A stretch of DNA of 46,187 nucleotides from Deltaproteobacteria bacterium. Lineage in GTDB: Bacteria > Desulfobacterota > Syntrophia > Syntrophales > UBA5619. Below, in pieces: positions 23,694 through 30,617 of this stretch (positions within the stretch are counted from its first letter, which is position 1; every line of letters starts with the position of its first letter). The notes under the pieces are model-generated. The model did not search any database and was not told where the DNA came from. It saw only the letters and a list, made by a program, of their open reading frames with translations. The stretch covers positions 1 to 46,187 of the forward strand of contig JAJFTY010000112.1 of assembly GCA_021372695.1 (NCBI GenBank). The letters run 5' to 3'. Position numbers and translations under genes: made by a program.

Positions 23694-25370
23694 ATGGAAA
23701 TTCTCTTTCGGATGATCCAGGCGATGTCGGTCTTCGTGGTGATCGCCTACATCTACAGCAAATCCCCGCTCTCCAAATCCCTGACCCTGGATCCCATCCG
23801 CACGCGCGACCGGCTCTATCTCTATCTCGTCTTCTCCGGCCTCTCGATCCTGGGCACCTATCTGGGGACGCCGGTCCAGGATGCCATCGCCAACACGCGC
23901 GCCATCGGGCCGGTGCTGGCCGGCATCATCGGAGGCCCCCTGCTCGGGACCGCCGTGGGGTTCACCGGCGGGCTTCACCGATATTGCCTGGGAGGATTCA
24001 CCGCGTTCTCCTGCGGCCTCTCGACCACGGTCGCCGGGGCGCTGGGGGGAATCGTACACCTCTACCTGGTCCGAAGCAGGCGCCCCGAGCAGATCTTCGA
24101 CCCGCGGGTCGCTCTGATCACCGCCTTCTGCGCGGAAGTCGTCGAGATGTCGATCATCCTCATGGTTTCACGCCCCTACGCCAATGCCGTCGCCCTGGTC
24201 CAGATCATCGCTGCGCCGATGATCCTGTCGAACGCCGCCGGCGCGGCCATCTTCATGAGCATCATCCGGGACCGGAAGAACATGTCGGACCGGATCGCCG
24301 CCATCTCCTCGGAAAAGGCGTTCAAGATTGCGGAGCGGACGCTCAAGATCCTGGCCCAGGGGATCAACCACGAAACCGCCGTGGACCTGGCGAATATCAT
24401 CCATCGGGAAACCGATGTGGGGTCCGTCGTCATCACCGACAGGGAGAGTCTTCTGGCCTTCGTCGGCCAGGGTTCCGACCACCACAAATCCGGCGGGCCG
24501 ATCGTCTCGCCCTTCACCAAAACGGCCATCCGTGAAAACCGGGTCATCTTCGTGGACGGGGCGAGCGAGCACTACGACTGTCCGCTGTCGAAGAACTGTC
24601 CGCTCCATTCCGCGCTGGTCGTCCCCCTGTGCATCGACAGCGAGGTGATCGGCACGATCAACCTCTACGAGCCCCGGCACAAGAACTTCCTCAACATGAA
24701 CAAGACGCTCGGTGAGGGGATCGCGAGGCTGCTGTCGCACCAGCTTCTCCTGGCCCGTTACGAGCTGCAGAAGAACCTGCTGGTGCAGTCCGAGTTGAAA
24801 CTCCTCCAGGCGCAGGTCAACCCGCATTTCCTGTTCAACGCGCTCAACACCATCATCGCGATCCTCCGCGTCGACGCGGCGCGGTCCAAGGACCTGCTCA
24901 TCCACCTATCCAACTTTTTTCGAAAGAACCTCAAGCGCAGCAGCGAAGTCTCGACGCTGGAGGAGGAGCTCGACCTGGTCAACTCCTATTTGCAGATCGA
25001 GAAGGCACGATTCGATGACCGCCTGACGGTCGGGATCGACATCGATCCCTCCCTGATGAAGATGATCCTCCCGACCTTCACGCTGCAGCCCCTGGTCGAG
25101 AACGCCTTCAAACACGGATTCTCGAACACCCTTCGCCCGGGAATCGCACGGATCAACGCCTTTCGGCGGGATGGCTGGGCCTTCATCGAAATCGAGGACA
25201 ATGCCGGAAGCTTTCTTGAGAAAAAACCGGGCGACGGCCAGGGGATCAAGATCGTCGACCGGCGGCTCAAGGGACGCTTCGGCGAGAATTCCGGCATCAC
25301 GATCTCCTGCGTGCCGAACGAACTGACGAGGATCAGCATCAAGATCCCTGCGGAGGCAAGGCCGGCATGA
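23694..25370 (+). CDS. LytS/BtsS-type sensor histidine kinase
   Basis: A 558-residue membrane sensor kinase. Residues ~1-190 form a 5TM-LYT multi-helix domain, ~205-345 a GAF-like domain, then a His_kinase domain with the phospho-accepting His378 in NPHFLFNALNTI and a HATPase with LVENAFKHG. In the membrane domain, Arg69, Arg96, Cys107 and Ser110 have exactly the spacing (27, 11, 3) that I recall for the pyruvate-binding Arg72, Arg99, Cys110 and Ser113 of E. coli BtsS, so a related ligand is plausible. The stop overlaps the regulator start by 4 bp. A 2-oxoacid-type TRAP transporter lies downstream. Confidence 0.92.
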   Translation: MEILFRMIQAMSVFVVIAYIYSKSPLSKSLTLDPIRTRDRLYLYLVFSGLSILGTYLGTPVQDAIANTRAIGPVLAGIIGGPLLGTAVGFTGGLHRYCLGGFTAFSCGLSTTVAGALGGIVHLYLVRSRRPEQIFDPRVALITAFCAEVVEMSIILMVSRPYANAVALVQIIAAPMILSNAAGAAIFMSIIRDRKNMSDRIAAISSEKAFKIAERTLKILAQGINHETAVDLANIIHRETDVGSVVITDRESLLAFVGQGSDHHKSGGPIVSPFTKTAIRENRVIFVDGASEHYDCPLSKNCPLHSALVVPLCIDSEVIGTINLYEPRHKNFLNMNKTLGEGIARLLSHQLLLARYELQKNLLVQSELKLLQAQVNPHFLFNALNTIIAILRVDAARSKDLLIHLSNFFRKNLKRSSEVSTLEEELDLVNSYLQIEKARFDDRLTVGIDIDPSLMKMILPTFTLQPLVENAFKHGFSNTLRPGIARINAFRRDGWAFIEIEDNAGSFLEKKPGDGQGIKIVDRRLKGRFGENSGITISCVPNELTRISIKIPAEARPA

Positions 25371-26077
25371 TGCGAGCACTGATCGTGGACGATGAGATCC
25401 ACTCCCGCGAAGAGCTGGAATCGATGCTTCGGGAGACCGGTGAATTCGACATTTCGGGCAAGTGCGCCAATGCCGTCGAAGCGATCCGGGCCATCAACCG
25501 CGAGAGGCCCGACGTGCTCTTCCTCGACATCCAGATGCCCGCGATCAGCGGTTTCGAACTGCTCAGCATGATCGACGAGAAGGTGATGCCGGTCGTCGTT
25601 TTTGTGACCGCCTATGACGAATATGCGCTCAAAGCCTTCGAGGAGAATGCTCTCGACTACCTGCTCAAACCGGTCGAAAAGGAGCGGCTCGCCAAAACCG
25701 TGGAGAAGTTGAAGAAACGGTTGGTCAGGGACGACAGGCCGCCCTTTTCCGGACCGGACATTCAGAAGATCCCCTGCACCCATGCCTCCAACATCAAACT
25801 CATTCCGACCGCGGAGATCGAGTATGTCCGCTCCGGCGAATCCGGGGTATACGTCGTTTGCCAAGGCGGTGAATTCTATACGGACCTCACCCTCCAGATT
25901 CTGGAAAGCAAGACGCGTCTTGTCCGCTGTCACAAACAGTTCCTCGTCAACATCGACTGGGTGGACGAAATCATCCTCCGCGAGAACATGCTTGCCGACA
26001 TCCGCACCCGCTCGGGCCGGCTGGTGCCGGTCAGCCGGAGATACCTCAAGATCCTCAGAGACTCCCTTCACTTCTGA
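25367..26077 (+). CDS. LytTR-family response regulator (BtsR-like)
   Basis: A 236-residue response regulator. The receiver domain (about residues 1-118) has the acidic pair Asp9/Asp10 in LIVDDE, the phosphorylation site Asp in VLFLDIQMP, and Lys in YLLKPVEK. Residues ~135-236 form a LytTR DNA-binding domain (IPTAEIEYVRSGESGVYV, LVRCHKQFLVNIDWVDEI, VPVSRRYLKIL). LytTR proteins bind pairs of short direct repeats spaced about two helical turns. It overlaps the kinase gene by 4 bp. The nearest candidate target is the repeat-rich region before dctP, 0.3-0.7 kb downstream. Confidence 0.94.
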   Translation: MMRALIVDDEIHSREELESMLRETGEFDISGKCANAVEAIRAINRERPDVLFLDIQMPAISGFELLSMIDEKVMPVVVFVTAYDEYALKAFEENALDYLLKPVEKERLAKTVEKLKKRLVRDDRPPFSGPDIQKIPCTHASNIKLIPTAEIEYVRSGESGVYVVCQGGEFYTDLTLQILESKTRLVRCHKQFLVNIDWVDEIILRENMLADIRTRSGRLVPVSRRYLKILRDSLHF

Positions 26078-26321
26078 AGGACTGCTCAAGCGACCATCGG
26101 CGCTGTACGTCCCCGATCCTGATGCCCGATCCCCTGCCCTCTTTCATGGCCGGTCAGCCGCAACTTTCGACCGTTTGACCCGGTATTCCGCCGGATGATC
26201 ATTTTCCCGTTGCAATTATCCCCTCGTATCCTTTTAATGGCGTACACAGGGTGGAGGGGATATCGTCACCACTCTCTGGCGCGGGTTTTCATCGCAAAAT
26301 GAAGCCTAGCCGCCTTTCCCC

Positions 26322-26351
26322 TTGACAAACAATTTCACCGGGTGGTAGCAT
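26322..26351 (+). promoter_or_regulatory. Promoter of the TRAP operon
   Basis: TTGACA (26322-26327), an 18-bp spacer and TAGCAT (26346-26351), the same architecture as the promoter before the sensor gene. Transcription from about 26358 would give a leader of about 425 nt that contains all three tandem repeats. The preceding 26078-26321 shows no gene. Confidence 0.6.
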
Positions 26352-26353
26352 CT

Positions 26354-26448
26354 GCCGCCTTTCCGAGCGAAGTGTTTGCTGAATAGTTCAAAACGATCTG
26401 CTGTCTTTGCGTCATATCGAATCACCGTGGTCCGCAAGGGCCACCGGA
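26354..26448. repeat. Tandem repeat unit, copy 1 of 3
   Basis: First of three imperfect direct repeats with starts ~130 bp apart. The best-conserved core (26377-26427) includes TGAATAGTTCA, then AAACGATCTGCTGTC and TATCGAATCACC. A following hairpin, GTGGTCC-GCAA-GGGCCAC (26427-26444), has a GNRA-type loop. Confidence 0.85.
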
Positions 26449-26487
26449 AGTGTCGCAGGCATAAAACGGGTTCGGCTGGTTTCGTCC

Positions 26488-26582
26488 ACCGCTTCCCGGA
26501 CAATGTGCCTGCTGAACAGTTCAAAACGATCTGCTGTCTTTGCGTCATATCGAATCGCCCGATCCCCAAAGGGTTCAGGTGA
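26488..26582. repeat. Tandem repeat unit, copy 2 of 3
   Basis: Core 26510-26560 differs from copy 1 at only a few positions. It carries a perfect palindrome TGAAC-A-GTTCA, and the trailing hairpin sequence is different (GATCCC-CAAA-GGGTTC). Its start is offset 133 bp from copy 1. Confidence 0.85.
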
Positions 26583-26614
26583 GGTTGTCGCCGCGGAATA
26601 GGTGATGGTCGCAT

Positions 26615-26711
26615 CCATCCTTTCCAGAGGCGTGCTTGCTCAATTGTTCAAAATGATCGGTTGTCGTTCGTCTCTCTGATCGAATCACCGGGATCCGAAG
26701 GGGACTCCGGA
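26615..26711. repeat. Tandem repeat unit, copy 3 of 3 (most diverged)
   Basis: Core 26637-26690, offset 127 bp from copy 2 and 3 bases longer than the other two cores. TTGTTCAAAATGATC and GATCGAATCACCG are retained, and TCGTTCGTC appears in the middle. The trailing hairpin is CCGG-GATCC-GAAGG-GGACT-CCGG. Confidence 0.8.
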
Positions 26712-26781
26712 GAGGTCGTTGTTGTCGGTGTGGGATGGGTTTTCTTCGGACCGTCATTCATCAAAACATGGGAGGAAGATT

Positions 26782-27960
26782 ATGACAAAAAAAGGACTGG
26801 GCAAAGACACAAAGCAGACAGGCGTATCACGCCGCAAGTTCCTCGCCGGCGCCGCGTTGGCGACGGCCGGGGCCGCAACCCTGGGTTTTCCCTCGGTTCT
26901 CAAAGCGCAGGGGCCGATCACCATGCGTTGGCAGAGCACCTGGCCGACCAAGGACATCTTCCACGAGTATGCCCTCGATTTCGCCAAGAAGGTCAATGAC
27001 ATGACCGGTGGCGATCTGAAGATCGAGGTGCTGCCGGCGGGTGCCGTCGTGCCGGCCTTCGACCTCCTGAATGCCGTTTCCAAGGGGACGCTCGACGGCG
27101 GCCACGGGGTCTTCGTTTACCACTACGGCAAGAACAACGCCCTGTCCCTGTGGGGATCGAGCCCCGCGTACGGGATGGACGCCGACATGATGCTCTCCTG
27201 GCACAAATACGGCGGCGGTAAGGAATTTTTTCAGAAGATCTACGAAGCCATCGGCGCCAATGTCAAATCTTATTCCTACGGGCCGATGTGGACACAGCCG
27301 CTCGGCTGGTTCAAGAAACCCATCACCAAACCAGACGATTTCAAGGGGCTCAAGTTCCGCACCGTGGGCATCTCGATCGACCTGTTCAAGGGGATGGGTG
27401 CAGCGGTCAACGCCCTGCCCGGCGGCGAGATTGTCCCGGCGATGGACCGCGGCCTCCTCGACGGGGCGGAATTCAACAACGCCTCCTCCGACCGGCTCCT
27501 CGGCTTCCCGGACGTCTCGAAGGTCTGCATGCTCCAGAGCTACCACCAGAGTGCCGAGTGTTTCGAAATCCTCTTCAACAAGCCCAAATTCGACGCCTTG
27601 CCGGCCAAGATGAGGGTGATCATCGACAACGCCGTCGATGCCGCGTCGGCGGACGTGACCTGGAAATCGATCGACCGCTACTCCCAGGACTACATCGAAC
27701 TCCAGACCAAGGACCATGTGAAGTTTTACAAGACGCCGGACTCGGTCCTCATGAGGCAGCTCGAGATCTTCGACAAGGTCGAGGCGGAGTACTCGGCCAA
27801 GAACCCGCTCTTCAAGGAGATCGTTGCCTCGCAGCGGAAATTCGCCGAACGTGCGGTGAAATGGAAGCTCGACACGGTGGTCAGCCCCCGCATGGCTTAT
27901 AACTACTATTTCGGCAAGAAGGCCGCTCCGAAGGCGGCGCCAAAGGCCGAGAAAAAATAA
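26782..27960 (+). CDS. dctP: TRAP transporter substrate-binding protein DctP (TakP/FcbT1 branch)
   Basis: A 392-residue periplasmic binding protein of a tripartite ATP-independent transporter. The N-terminus carries a twin-arginine signal (VSRRKFLAGAALATAGAA), with likely cleavage after LKAQ near residue 42. Features of the TakP/FcbT1 (mannitol/chloroaromatic/2-oxoacid) branch include KGLKFRTVGI and NALPGGEIVPAMDRGLLDG. The C-terminus is a Lys/Ala/Pro tail. The start is ATG 26782, with GGAGG 6 bp upstream; an open frame extends further 5' without support. It lies downstream of a LytS/LytR pair and is followed by dctQ and dctM. A 2-oxo or related organic acid is the likely ligand, by family only. 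Confidence 0.93.
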   Translation: MTKKGLGKDTKQTGVSRRKFLAGAALATAGAATLGFPSVLKAQGPITMRWQSTWPTKDIFHEYALDFAKKVNDMTGGDLKIEVLPAGAVVPAFDLLNAVSKGTLDGGHGVFVYHYGKNNALSLWGSSPAYGMDADMMLSWHKYGGGKEFFQKIYEAIGANVKSYSYGPMWTQPLGWFKKPITKPDDFKGLKFRTVGISIDLFKGMGAAVNALPGGEIVPAMDRGLLDGAEFNNASSDRLLGFPDVSKVCMLQSYHQSAECFEILFNKPKFDALPAKMRVIIDNAVDAASADVTWKSIDRYSQDYIELQTKDHVKFYKTPDSVLMRQLEIFDKVEAEYSAKNPLFKEIVASQRKFAERAVKWKLDTVVSPRMAYNYYFGKKAAPKAAPKAEKK

Positions 27961-27980
27961 TGAGTTAAATCGCATCTCCG

Positions 27981-28013
27981 ATCAGCCACCCGGCATCGCG
28001 CCGGGTGGCTGAT
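27981..28013 (+). terminator. Stable hairpin between dctP and dctQ
   Basis: A 14-bp perfect stem (27981-27994 with 28000-28013) around an ATCGC loop, followed by only a weak T-rich tract. It probably protects the dctP message or partly terminates, allowing more binding protein than membrane subunits, as is common in binding-protein operons. Confidence 0.7.
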
Positions 28014-28032
28014 TTCCGGTTTAGAGGTGACT

Positions 28033-28659
28033 ATGCAGAAATTGCTGTTGACCGTTGACAAGTTCAGCACCTTCGTGGGCACGGCCTTTTCCTGGCTCAT
28101 CATATCGCTGACCTTTCTGATCACCTACGAGGTGTTCTCGCGCTACGCCATGGATGCCCCACACGACTGGGCCTTCGACGGGATGATCCAGATGTACGGC
28201 ATGCTCTTCATGATGGCGGGCGCCTACACCCTTTCGAAGAACAACATGGTCCGCGGCGACGTCCTCTACGGCTTCTTTCCGCCGCGTGTACAGGCCGCCC
28301 TCGACCTGACGCTCTACTTCGTCTTTTTCATTCCCGGGGTCATTGCCCTCTGCTGGGCCGGATACACCTATGCCCTCGATGCATGGGCGATCTGGGAGCA
28401 CTCGGGGATCACCGCCAACGGCCCCCCGATCTACCAGTTCAAGACCATCATCCCCATCGCCGGGGCGATCATCCTCGTTCAGGGGATCGTCGAGATGATC
28501 CGCTGCGTCCTGTGCCTCAAGACCGGCCAGTGGCCCTCCCGCATCCAGGACGTCGAGGAAGTCGACGTCGAGAAACTGAAGGCGACGGTGGGGGTCGGTG
28601 ACGAGGATATCGCGAAGCTCGATCAGTATGTGACGCATGGAAAAGGGGGCGATCAATGA
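28033..28659 (+). CDS. dctQ: TRAP transporter small membrane subunit DctQ
   Basis: A 208-residue small permease subunit with four predicted membrane helices (about residues 15-38, 55-75, 85-110, 140-160) and the family-like segment VFSRYAMDAPHDWAFDGM. The C-terminal 45 residues are charged and cytosolic. The ATG at 28033 with AGAGGTG upstream is preferred; an in-frame GTG at 28027 adds two residues. The stop overlaps the dctM start by 4 bp, so the two subunits are made in tandem. Confidence 0.92.
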   Translation: MQKLLLTVDKFSTFVGTAFSWLIISLTFLITYEVFSRYAMDAPHDWAFDGMIQMYGMLFMMAGAYTLSKNNMVRGDVLYGFFPPRVQAALDLTLYFVFFIPGVIALCWAGYTYALDAWAIWEHSGITANGPPIYQFKTIIPIAGAIILVQGIVEMIRCVLCLKTGQWPSRIQDVEEVDVEKLKATVGVGDEDIAKLDQYVTHGKGGDQ

Positions 28660-30617
28660 AGAAAGAAGCCTGGTTTGGACTATCGATCATGGCGCTGGTG
28701 GTGATCGGCGTCTTCTGGGCAATGCCCCCGTTTGCACAGTGGACGAACGGCCACCTTGGTCTTCTGATGCTCGCAATGATCGTCATCGCGATCATGCTCG
28801 GCTTTCCCACCGCCTTCACCCTGATGGGGATGGGAACGATGTTCGCCTTTTTCTGCTATTACGGCCAGAACCCGAACACGGCGGTGAACCACACATTATA
28901 CCTGGTGGCGCAGCGGGCCTTTGCCGTCATGAACAATGACGTTCTGATTTCGATTCCGCTGTTCGTCTTCATGGGGTACCTCGTCGAGAGGGCCAACCTG
29001 ATCGGCAGGCTCTTCAAGAGCCTCCACCTGGCGACCTCCCGGATTCCCGGATCGCTCGCCGTCGCGACGATCATCACCTGCGCGATCTTCGCGACCGCGA
29101 CCGGGATCATCGGGGCGGTCGTGACGCTCATGGGACTCCTTGCCTTTCCGGCAATGCTCAAGGCAGGTTACAGCGTCCGGCTCTCGGCGGGCGTCGTGTG
29201 CGCCGGGGGAACCCTCGGCATCCTGATCCCTCCCTCGGTCCTCCTGATCCTTTATGGCGCGACCGCGGGCGTCTCGGTCGTCCAGCTCTACGCCGGGGCC
29301 TTTCTGCCTGGCATCATGCTGACCTGCCTCTATCTCGGCTACATGATCCTCTCCGCGAAGCTCAAGCCGAGCATCGCCCCGCCCCTTTCCGCAGAGGACC
29401 AGCGGGTCGATCTGCCCAAGTTTGCGGAAGTGATCTCCAGGAAGACAGACAACGTCATGGTTGGCCTGATCGGCGCGATCAAGGGGAAGCGGAACGCCGA
29501 TGTCCCGATGAAGACCCTGCTCCAGCACCTGGTCATCGCCATCCTCCCGGCAATCGCGGGTGCGCTCCTCGTTCTGGTGATCTGGCTCTGGACCACGGCC
29601 CCCACGCTGGTGGATACGTCAGGCGTGCAGGAGATGGGCGGCGGCTCTTTGATCGAAGGAACGGTCGGCGATGAAGGTTCAGTAGAGGAATCGCAGCCAG
29701 GCAGCCTCGCAGAGCCTCCGGCCGAGGAGGGCGGCCTCGCGGAGCCTCCGGCCGAATCCGCTCCCGGGGCACCCGCCGTGGCTGCAACCCCGACGGCACC
29801 ACAGACGCCTCCCTCCAAGGTCGCCGCTGCACCGGTCGCCCCGGCGGCGCCCGGACGCAATCCGGCCCCCCTGGCGTTCTGGATCACCTTTGGCATCGTC
29901 GCTGCGGGGCTGGTGATCTTTTATGCGATCTTCACCTTCACCCGTCTCGAGATCTTCAAGATGCTTCTCGGGTCATTCTTCCCGCTGGCCCTGATCATTC
30001 TCGGGGTCCTGGGGTCGATCATCGTGGGGCTCGCAACCCCAACCGAGGCGGCGGCCATGGGGTCCTTCGGGGGCTTTGTCCTGGCGGCGGCGTACAAGCA
30101 GCTCAATTTCACCGTCGTCAAGGAATCGGTCTTCCTCACCGCCAAAACCTCGGCCATGGTCTGCTGGCTCTTCATCGGTTCGAACACCTTCTCGGCGGCC
30201 TTCGCCCTCCTGGGCGGCCAGGAGATCATTAATGCCTGGGTGACGTCGATGAACATGACGCCGACCCAGTTCATGCTGCTGGCGCAGGTGATCATCTTTC
30301 TGTTGGGCTGGCCGCTGGAGTGGACCGAGATCATCGTCATCTTCATGCCGATCTTCATCCCGCTCCTGGCTCACTTCAACATCGACCCCCTCTTCTTTGG
30401 TCTCCTGGTGGCCCTGAACCTCCAGACGGCGTTCCTCTCGCCGCCGGTGGCGATGGCCGCCTTCTACCTGAAGGGGGTGGCGCCGCCCCATGTGACGCTG
30501 AACCAGATCTTCGTCGGGATGCTGCCCTTCATGGTGATCCAACTGCTGGCGATCTTTTTGCTCTACATGTTTCCAGAGATCGGCCTGTGGGTGCCGTCGT
30601 TGGTGTATAGTGGATGA
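28656..30617 (+). CDS. dctM: TRAP transporter large permease subunit DctM with a ~190-residue internal insertion
   Basis: The large ion-coupled permease subunit, 653 aa against a usual length near 430. Residues 1-240 and ~436-653 match DctM (GIIGAVVTLMGLLAFPAML, GGTLGILIPPSVLL, GLATPTEAAAMGSFGGF). Between them is an insertion of about 190 residues. It contains an extra membrane helix (~288-312), a low-complexity Ala/Pro/Glu/Gly linker (~325-402) with a near-duplicate SLAEPPAEEGG/GLAEPPAES, and a second extra helix (~406-428). Two added helices keep the topology of the rest. The reading frame is intact, so this looks like a real long form and not a frameshift. Confidence 0.93.
   Translation: MKKEAWFGLSIMALVVIGVFWAMPPFAQWTNGHLGLLMLAMIVIAIMLGFPTAFTLMGMGTMFAFFCYYGQNPNTAVNHTLYLVAQRAFAVMNNDVLISIPLFVFMGYLVERANLIGRLFKSLHLATSRIPGSLAVATIITCAIFATATGIIGAVVTLMGLLAFPAMLKAGYSVRLSAGVVCAGGTLGILIPPSVLLILYGATAGVSVVQLYAGAFLPGIMLTCLYLGYMILSAKLKPSIAPPLSAEDQRVDLPKFAEVISRKTDNVMVGLIGAIKGKRNADVPMKTLLQHLVIAILPAIAGALLVLVIWLWTTAPTLVDTSGVQEMGGGSLIEGTVGDEGSVEESQPGSLAEPPAEEGGLAEPPAESAPGAPAVAATPTAPQTPPSKVAAAPVAPAAPGRNPAPLAFWITFGIVAAGLVIFYAIFTFTRLEIFKMLLGSFFPLALIILGVLGSIIVGLATPTEAAAMGSFGGFVLAAAYKQLNFTVVKESVFLTAKTSAMVCWLFIGSNTFSAAFALLGGQEIINAWVTSMNMTPTQFMLLAQVIIFLLGWPLEWTEIIVIFMPIFIPLLAHFNIDPLFFGLLVALNLQTAFLSPPVAMAAFYLKGVAPPHVTLNQIFVGMLPFMVIQLLAIFLLYMFPEIGLWVPSLVYSG

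Follow-up and report, generated by a model that had tools for sequence, protein, structure and literature searches.

A candidate regulatory leader RNA, repeated three times in tandem before a BtsSR-linked TRAP transporter operon in a Syntrophales-order bacterium

A 46,187-nucleotide stretch of DNA from a Deltaproteobacteria bacterium of the order Syntrophales (assembly GCA_021372695.1, contig JAJFTY010000112.1; hereafter the window) contains three imperfect tandem repeats immediately upstream of a TRAP transporter operon. We consider it reasonably probable that this array is a tandem triplication of the operon's 5' untranslated leader, and that the repeated unit is a cis-acting leader RNA which occurs singly in relatives and was triplicated here, ahead of a BtsSR-linked operon that is probably concerned with keto acids. 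The hairpins would act in cis on the mRNA, setting either ribosome loading on dctP or the stability of the message, and the extra copies would scale this effect on the transporter mRNA, while control by BtsR would be exerted separately, on DNA upstream of the array. The features of the array and its surroundings are the following.

26322..26351, plus strand: sigma-70-like promoter TTGACA-18-TAGCAT, adjoining the array
26359..26491, plus strand: leader unit 1 (repeat alignment)
26415..26457, plus strand: hairpin element copy 1 (model R2, E 4.3e-9; the copy belongs to the training set)
26492..26618, plus strand: leader unit 2 (repeat alignment)
26548..26589, plus strand: hairpin element copy 2 (model R2, E 3.8e-9; the copy belongs to the training set)
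26619..26720, plus strand: leader unit 3, which occupies the ancestral position (repeat alignment; sole window match of the 93-nt model R1, which was trained on unit 3)
26678..26720, plus strand: hairpin element copy 3, spanning 104 to 62 nt upstream of the dctP start codon (model R2, E 4e-10; in the training set)
26721..26769, plus strand: conserved 3' leader box before the Shine-Dalgarno sequence (alignment A1, model R1)
26782..27960, plus strand: dctP, TRAP solute-binding protein (Pfam DctP)

The first-pass annotation of this DNA had described three imperfect units at offsets of 133 and 127 bp, and this geometry was confirmed. The repeats (26359-26426, 26492-26559 and 26619-26686) lie at these start-to-start distances, copies 2 and 3 are 87% and 60% identical to copy 1 in ungapped alignment, and self-alignment of the leader gave a best off-diagonal score of 91, a value that never exceeded 14 when the leader was dinucleotide-shuffled 12 times. 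In addition, the 20-mer GTTCAAAACGATCTGCTGTC occurs three times in the window (with 0, 0 and 3 mismatches) and was absent from 100 shuffles. Copies 1 and 2 share an identical run of 39 nt (26385-26423), the remainder of these copies having diverged. Since many substitutions separate the copies, an assembly artefact is unlikely.

The promoter that had been predicted just upstream of the array was also found, with TTGACA at 26322 and TAGCAT ending at 26351. Given the promoter position and the lack of any terminator-like site in the window leader, the predicted transcript starts near the beginning of unit 1 and reads through all three units into dctP. The leader element is very probably transcribed in its triplicate form.

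To define the element in other genomes, leaders of the same TRAP operon were collected by a DctP search, which identified 11 of the 155 genomes of the Syntrophales order at E <= 1e-110 and, with the addition of genome G002 (where the contig in L002 ends inside dctP), provided 12 leaders from relatives (L001, L002, L003, L004, L062, L068, L069, L070, L074, L076, L077 and L078). TTGACA or TTGACT is found upstream of the leader in 11 of these relatives, L078 being the exception; at that locus, repeats of TGTCAGGTTTTCACTACA appear by eye to occupy the promoter position of other loci, like the end of an inserted mobile element. Two models were then used for searches: R1, a 93-nt leader model built from all 13 leaders, and R2, a hairpin model trained on the three window copies plus eight relatives, so that R2 E-values for the window copies and those eight leaders are not independent. 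The first-pass annotation had proposed that absence of the array from relatives which retain the operon would refute its proposal. Such absence was found for the array as a whole, which is present in none of the 12 relatives' leaders (self-alignment scores 8-14, one above the shuffle maximum in L001, 13 vs 12, and in L069, 14 vs 13), but it does not extend to the single unit, as the hairpin element is present in one copy in 8 of the 12 leaders, compared with three copies in the window (all of them R2 training members). No R2 match was found in L068, L069 or L074, and the match in L001 is weak and doubtful. BLASTN of the repeats, the search originally suggested, gave only weak matches in the genomes of 10 relatives (best E 0.00998).

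These models also define how far the element extends. In the window, R2 recovered three strong copies (E 4e-10 to about 4e-9), the next match having an E-value of 0.19. When R2 was applied to the 12 leader genomes, with the best 150 candidates taken from each, 8 matches fell below 0.01, all of them TRAP leaders, and the others were at 0.13 or above, so no regulon-like spread of the hairpin was seen. R1 produced one match per genome in 12 genomes, each being the TRAP leader (by construction), and no convincing new member across the 155 genomes of the order; of two weak R1 matches elsewhere (G076, G122), one, L091, lies inside a long open frame. DctP orthologues beyond the order, found in 7 further of 395 genomes, had no convincing leader match with either model, BLASTN of the leader against phages and plasmids gave no match, and Rfam had no match in 26050-26800 at E <= 5 (the whole window at the gathering threshold gave one tRNA). 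The leader element is lineage-restricted, with a narrow distribution and a simple structure.

The element of about 42-43 nt consists of an outer helix of 3-5 bp, an internal loop and an inner helix of 7-8 bp, and is followed by the conserved box before the ribosome-binding site. Leader alignments show that the flanks of the hairpin are partly conserved and its loop is not. When the 43-nt element was folded, the sequence of the outer helix differed in most taxa and the inner stem was present, L062 and L076 fitting less well. Covariation was assessed in alignment A2, which contains 11 rows (the three window units and eight relatives) aligned by sequence alone; these relatives were picked for a visible hairpin, and L001, L068, L069 and L074 were left out. 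The A2 stem has 8 pairs, with 73 of 85 cells paired and both partners changed in 4 of the 8 pairs. Neither the observed pairing percentage nor the covariation score was reached in any of 500 shuffles; 22, 6 and 7 of 500 reached the observed number of double-change pairs, double-change cells and pair types, respectively, and slid registers were at most 69% paired. Thus, a covarying leader structure of the kind looked for in riboswitches was found for one hairpin, in eight relatives and the three window units. Folding scores point in the same direction for the relatives, as the combined (Stouffer) z of all 12 was -4.46 for the sense strand against -1.23 for its complement, although z was positive in L068, L069 and L001 and the preference was reversed in L003.

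Among the readings offered by the first-pass annotation, a leader RNA is the best fit, because homologous leaders exist in single copy, their stem covaries, and relatives' leaders fold better on the sense strand. Several results weigh against it, including the three leaders without a hairpin match and the weak match in L001, and the folding of the window units themselves. Their combined z was -2.58 on the sense strand and -1.76 on the other, with a clear sense preference in unit 1 only; unit 3 has a z of just -0.68, and for units 2 and 3 the minus strand gives folds of similar or greater strength. The claim that the hairpin differs in bases between copies while pairing is kept held in its first half, as each unit has a hairpin of different bases, whereas its second half did not reach significance, as pairing is kept no better than chance: at the positions where the window copies differ, a fold of at least the same stability was preserved by 8-57% of random substitution trials and by 19-44% of permutation trials. 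Since random substitutions often keep equal stability, pairing kept between copies is not significant alone, and support for the predicted pairing comes from other species, not from the window copies.

The position of the hairpin suggests where it might act. In nine leaders (the window and eight relatives) the dctP-proximal hairpin begins 102-108 nt upstream of the ATG, with its end at 61-67 nt, and this near-fixed distance to the start codon suits an effect on translation start, or is merely conserved spacing. Blocks of predicted pairing join the unit 1 core (26386-26423) to the dctP start region (26780-26820), with shuffled cores binding as strongly at frequencies of 0.007 for unit 1, 0.017 for unit 2 and 0.52 for unit 3. 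Random stretches of the window bind as well as core 1 at a frequency of 0.08 and core 2 at 0.15, so this pairing is weak and not clearly above background. For pairing of the whole leader with the dctP start, values across 13 leaders were low in L062 (0.000), L068 (0.015) and L002 (0.030); the window had 0.655, and the other nine were not low.

A different view of the array is that it records a neutral or nearly neutral tandem duplication, in which the single element may matter and the extra copies do nothing. The absence of the array from all 12 relatives, the between-copy pairing that does not exceed random expectation, and the exact 39-nt run in copies 1 and 2 flanked by diverged sequence, a pattern expected from recent duplication or gene conversion, all agree with this view. 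Against it, all three copies score as the element (E <5e-9, though with an R2 model trained on them), and copies 1 and 2 retain folds of -15.9 and -13.5 kcal/mol. We regard neutral duplication as rather unlikely, though more likely than the other alternatives.

The genes that flank the array bear on the signal to which the operon may respond and on a further explanation of the repeats.

23694..25370, plus strand: btsS-like histidine kinase with 5TM-LYT, GAF and His_kinase domains (Pfam; comparison with E. coli BtsS)
25367..26077, plus strand: btsR-like LytTR response regulator (Pfam Response_reg and LytTR; NCBIfam BtsR equivalog, 328.8 bits, cut-off 246)
26148..26198, plus strand: predicted BtsR-type operator, a triple half-site repeat with spacings of 21 and 20 bp (matrix from seven relatives)
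26209..26238, plus strand: candidate BtsR-dependent promoter, GTTGCA box and TTTAAT-like -10 (box spacing across loci)
28027..30617, plus strand: dctQ and dctM (Pfam DctQ, DctM)

The kinase is identical to E. coli BtsS at 273 of 557 aligned residues and conserves R72, R99, C110, S113 and H382, the first four of which are described as pyruvate-binding residues of BtsS (PMC10653868). The regulator is 49% identical to E. coli BtsR, and its best four relatives, at 72-78% identity, come from Syntrophales, Syntrophobacterales and other delta-proteobacterial assemblies. By homology, the two-component system adjoining the array is BtsS/BtsR. The nearest solved structures to DctP include 2hzk/2hzl, taken here as the TakP entries from the name SmoM, and the ketoacid-binding protein 7ug8; TakP (formerly SmoM) is described as binding alpha-keto acids, with a structure solved with pyruvate (PMC1839085). 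Because BtsSR orthologues with the pyruvate residues accompany a DctP whose structural relatives bind keto acids, the neighbouring TRAP operon is likely to encode a keto-acid (pyruvate-type) transporter. With BtsS/BtsR orthologues immediately preceding a TRAP operon whose binding protein is TakP-like, the region 23694-30617 encodes a candidate pyruvate-inducible TRAP transporter. The DctM protein (28656-30617; 653 aa) appears by eye to have a proline/alanine-rich insert in its middle.

In E. coli, BtsR half-sites follow the motif ACC[GA]CT[CT]A. A site of this type at 26148 scores 25.6 bits with a matrix derived from seven relatives (the window being left out), compared with 14.0 bits for the next best site on the plus strand, and its half-site pairs reach 21.9 bits at 26148 and 14.9 bits at 26169. 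The same geometry of three half-sites, 3' of the regulator stop codon, is present in the window and at L001-L004, L064, L066 and L067; leave-one-out scores for these eight loci range over 17.5-35.7, and L062, which lies outside the matrix training, scores 25.6 bits. GTTGCA, GTTGTA or ATTGCA occurs exactly 10 bases after the third half-site in 6 of the 8 loci (absent in L001 and L003). By eye, the operator at L064 stands before a CstA-type carrier gene that follows the regulator, and those at L066 and L067 precede genes resembling an HTH-cupin regulator. The window system shares with E. coli BtsSR-btsT the BtsS/BtsR orthologues, the conserved pyruvate residues and ACC[GA]CT[CT]A-type half-sites before a target transporter, but the target in E. 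coli is a CstA-type carrier and the neighbour here is a TRAP operon. DNA upstream of E. coli btsT contains two such half-sites and scores 12.7 bits (the window being part of the matrix in this case), which barely exceeds the 11.7 reached by chance in leader genomes, and its spacing differs. BtsR is predicted to act separately from the leader, at this putative operator on DNA upstream of the array.

The first-pass annotation had raised the possibility that the repeats themselves are LytTR operators which recruit the adjacent response regulator, and the analysis makes this quite improbable. The regulator gene does adjoin the array, and the copy-2 half-site AACAGTTCAA resembles a AACCGTTCAA-type half-site, scoring 9.4 bits alone (rank 70 among single half-sites in the window); pairs at 26494 and 26361, made of AACAGTTCAA or its copy-1 counterpart plus a site 21 bp upstream, rank 4 and 14, in two copies only, and the copy-3 pair at 26642 has 4.9 bits and rank 115. 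BtsR may thus bind weakly at the repeats. However, a complete triple operator is located elsewhere (26148-26198), and the half-site pairs originally proposed score only -10.5 to 4.9 bits in register, over four spacings and pairings, and between 115 and 10467 of the 46127 positions in the window do as well. Paired ACC-type half-sites with a spacing of 20-21 bp, as in the operator pairs of 21.9 and 14.9 bits, were not found in the repeats. The leader also occurs without the regulator. The regulator search, in which at most 18 candidates were scored per genome, used a threshold of E <= 1e-60 and detected BtsR in 8 of the order's 155 genomes; at this threshold it was undetected in 7 of the 12 leader genomes, all of which keep the leader and in which the best operator-like score was 2.9-11.7 in the 1.2 kb scanned around it, indicating no operator. 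Nor does contact between protein and DNA account for stem covariation across species. Because of the separate triple operator, the persistence of the leader without BtsR and the low half-site scores, the repeats are probably not a binding site of the neighbouring regulator.

A more elaborate form of the leader RNA would be a three-unit tandem sensor, in which a metabolite or protein signal makes each unit switch between an upstream CGAU/AUCG pairing and the outer helix, producing a cooperative response on top of BtsSR control; we regard this as very improbable. The CGAT/ATCG pairing that the first-pass annotation described, with its G-U pair in copy 3, was confirmed, being present in the RNAalifold consensus of the three units. 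This upstream pairing would compete with the outer helix, and some relatives seem, by eye, to have similar competing pairings. Folding of the 5' half is inconsistent between units (z 0.11, 1.50 and -3.11), and good in unit 3 only. The remaining proposal, of minus-strand small RNAs or short peptides across the repeats, is extremely improbable and found no support, since a minus-strand open frame of 102 codons spanning two units and the roughly equal minus-strand folding of units 2 and 3 are outweighed by the G-U pairs, which point to the plus strand (where 73 of 85 cells pair, 14 of them G-U, vs 61 of 85 on the minus strand for the same pairs), by the better sense-strand folding of relatives' leaders, and by both promoter-like matches in 26050-26800 being on the plus strand.

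For the leader RNA, the candidate effectors CsrA and RNase J do not fit: CsrA is encoded in 2 of the 12 leader genomes (G003 and G004), and RNase J was above the cut-off in none of the 12, with the caveat for both that assemblies may be incomplete. Stabilising hairpins of the 5' UTR and STAB-SD elements are known stabilisers of mRNA that act from the leader. The window resembles them in having a structured leader before a binding-protein gene and differs in that its leader has no Shine-Dalgarno-like site above shuffles, 0.72 of 40 shuffles having one as good, so that a STAB-SD stabiliser was rejected here, and in that RNase J was not found above the cut-off in the 12 relatives. Such a site was present at <=0.05 of shuffles in 9 of 19 leaders (L002, L062, L070, L077, L094, L095, L096, L098 and L099). 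In TRAP leaders L094, L096, L098 and L099, from outside the order, AAGGAGGTGA, a nearly perfect Shine-Dalgarno-like sequence, lies 99-117 nt before dctP; by eye, the frame that follows it in L098 stops at once. Tandem riboswitches and tandem aptamers, as treated in a review (PMC9481103), likewise place repeated structured RNA units in the leaders of metabolic or transport operons, but the window has a single simple hairpin whose loop is not conserved, and it lacks an Rfam match, a terminator-like site and a known ligand. In paper searches, titles and abstract openings showed neither a described leader of this form nor a BtsS-TRAP pairing.

The leader element can be considered a real but modest candidate for a regulatory RNA: a lineage-restricted structured leader without an Rfam match, on a pyruvate-type transporter operon. 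It provides a natural comparison of one and three copies for how leader hairpins set transporter expression, and the BtsSR system beside the TRAP operon suggests a candidate pyruvate importer in relatives of anaerobic syntrophs.
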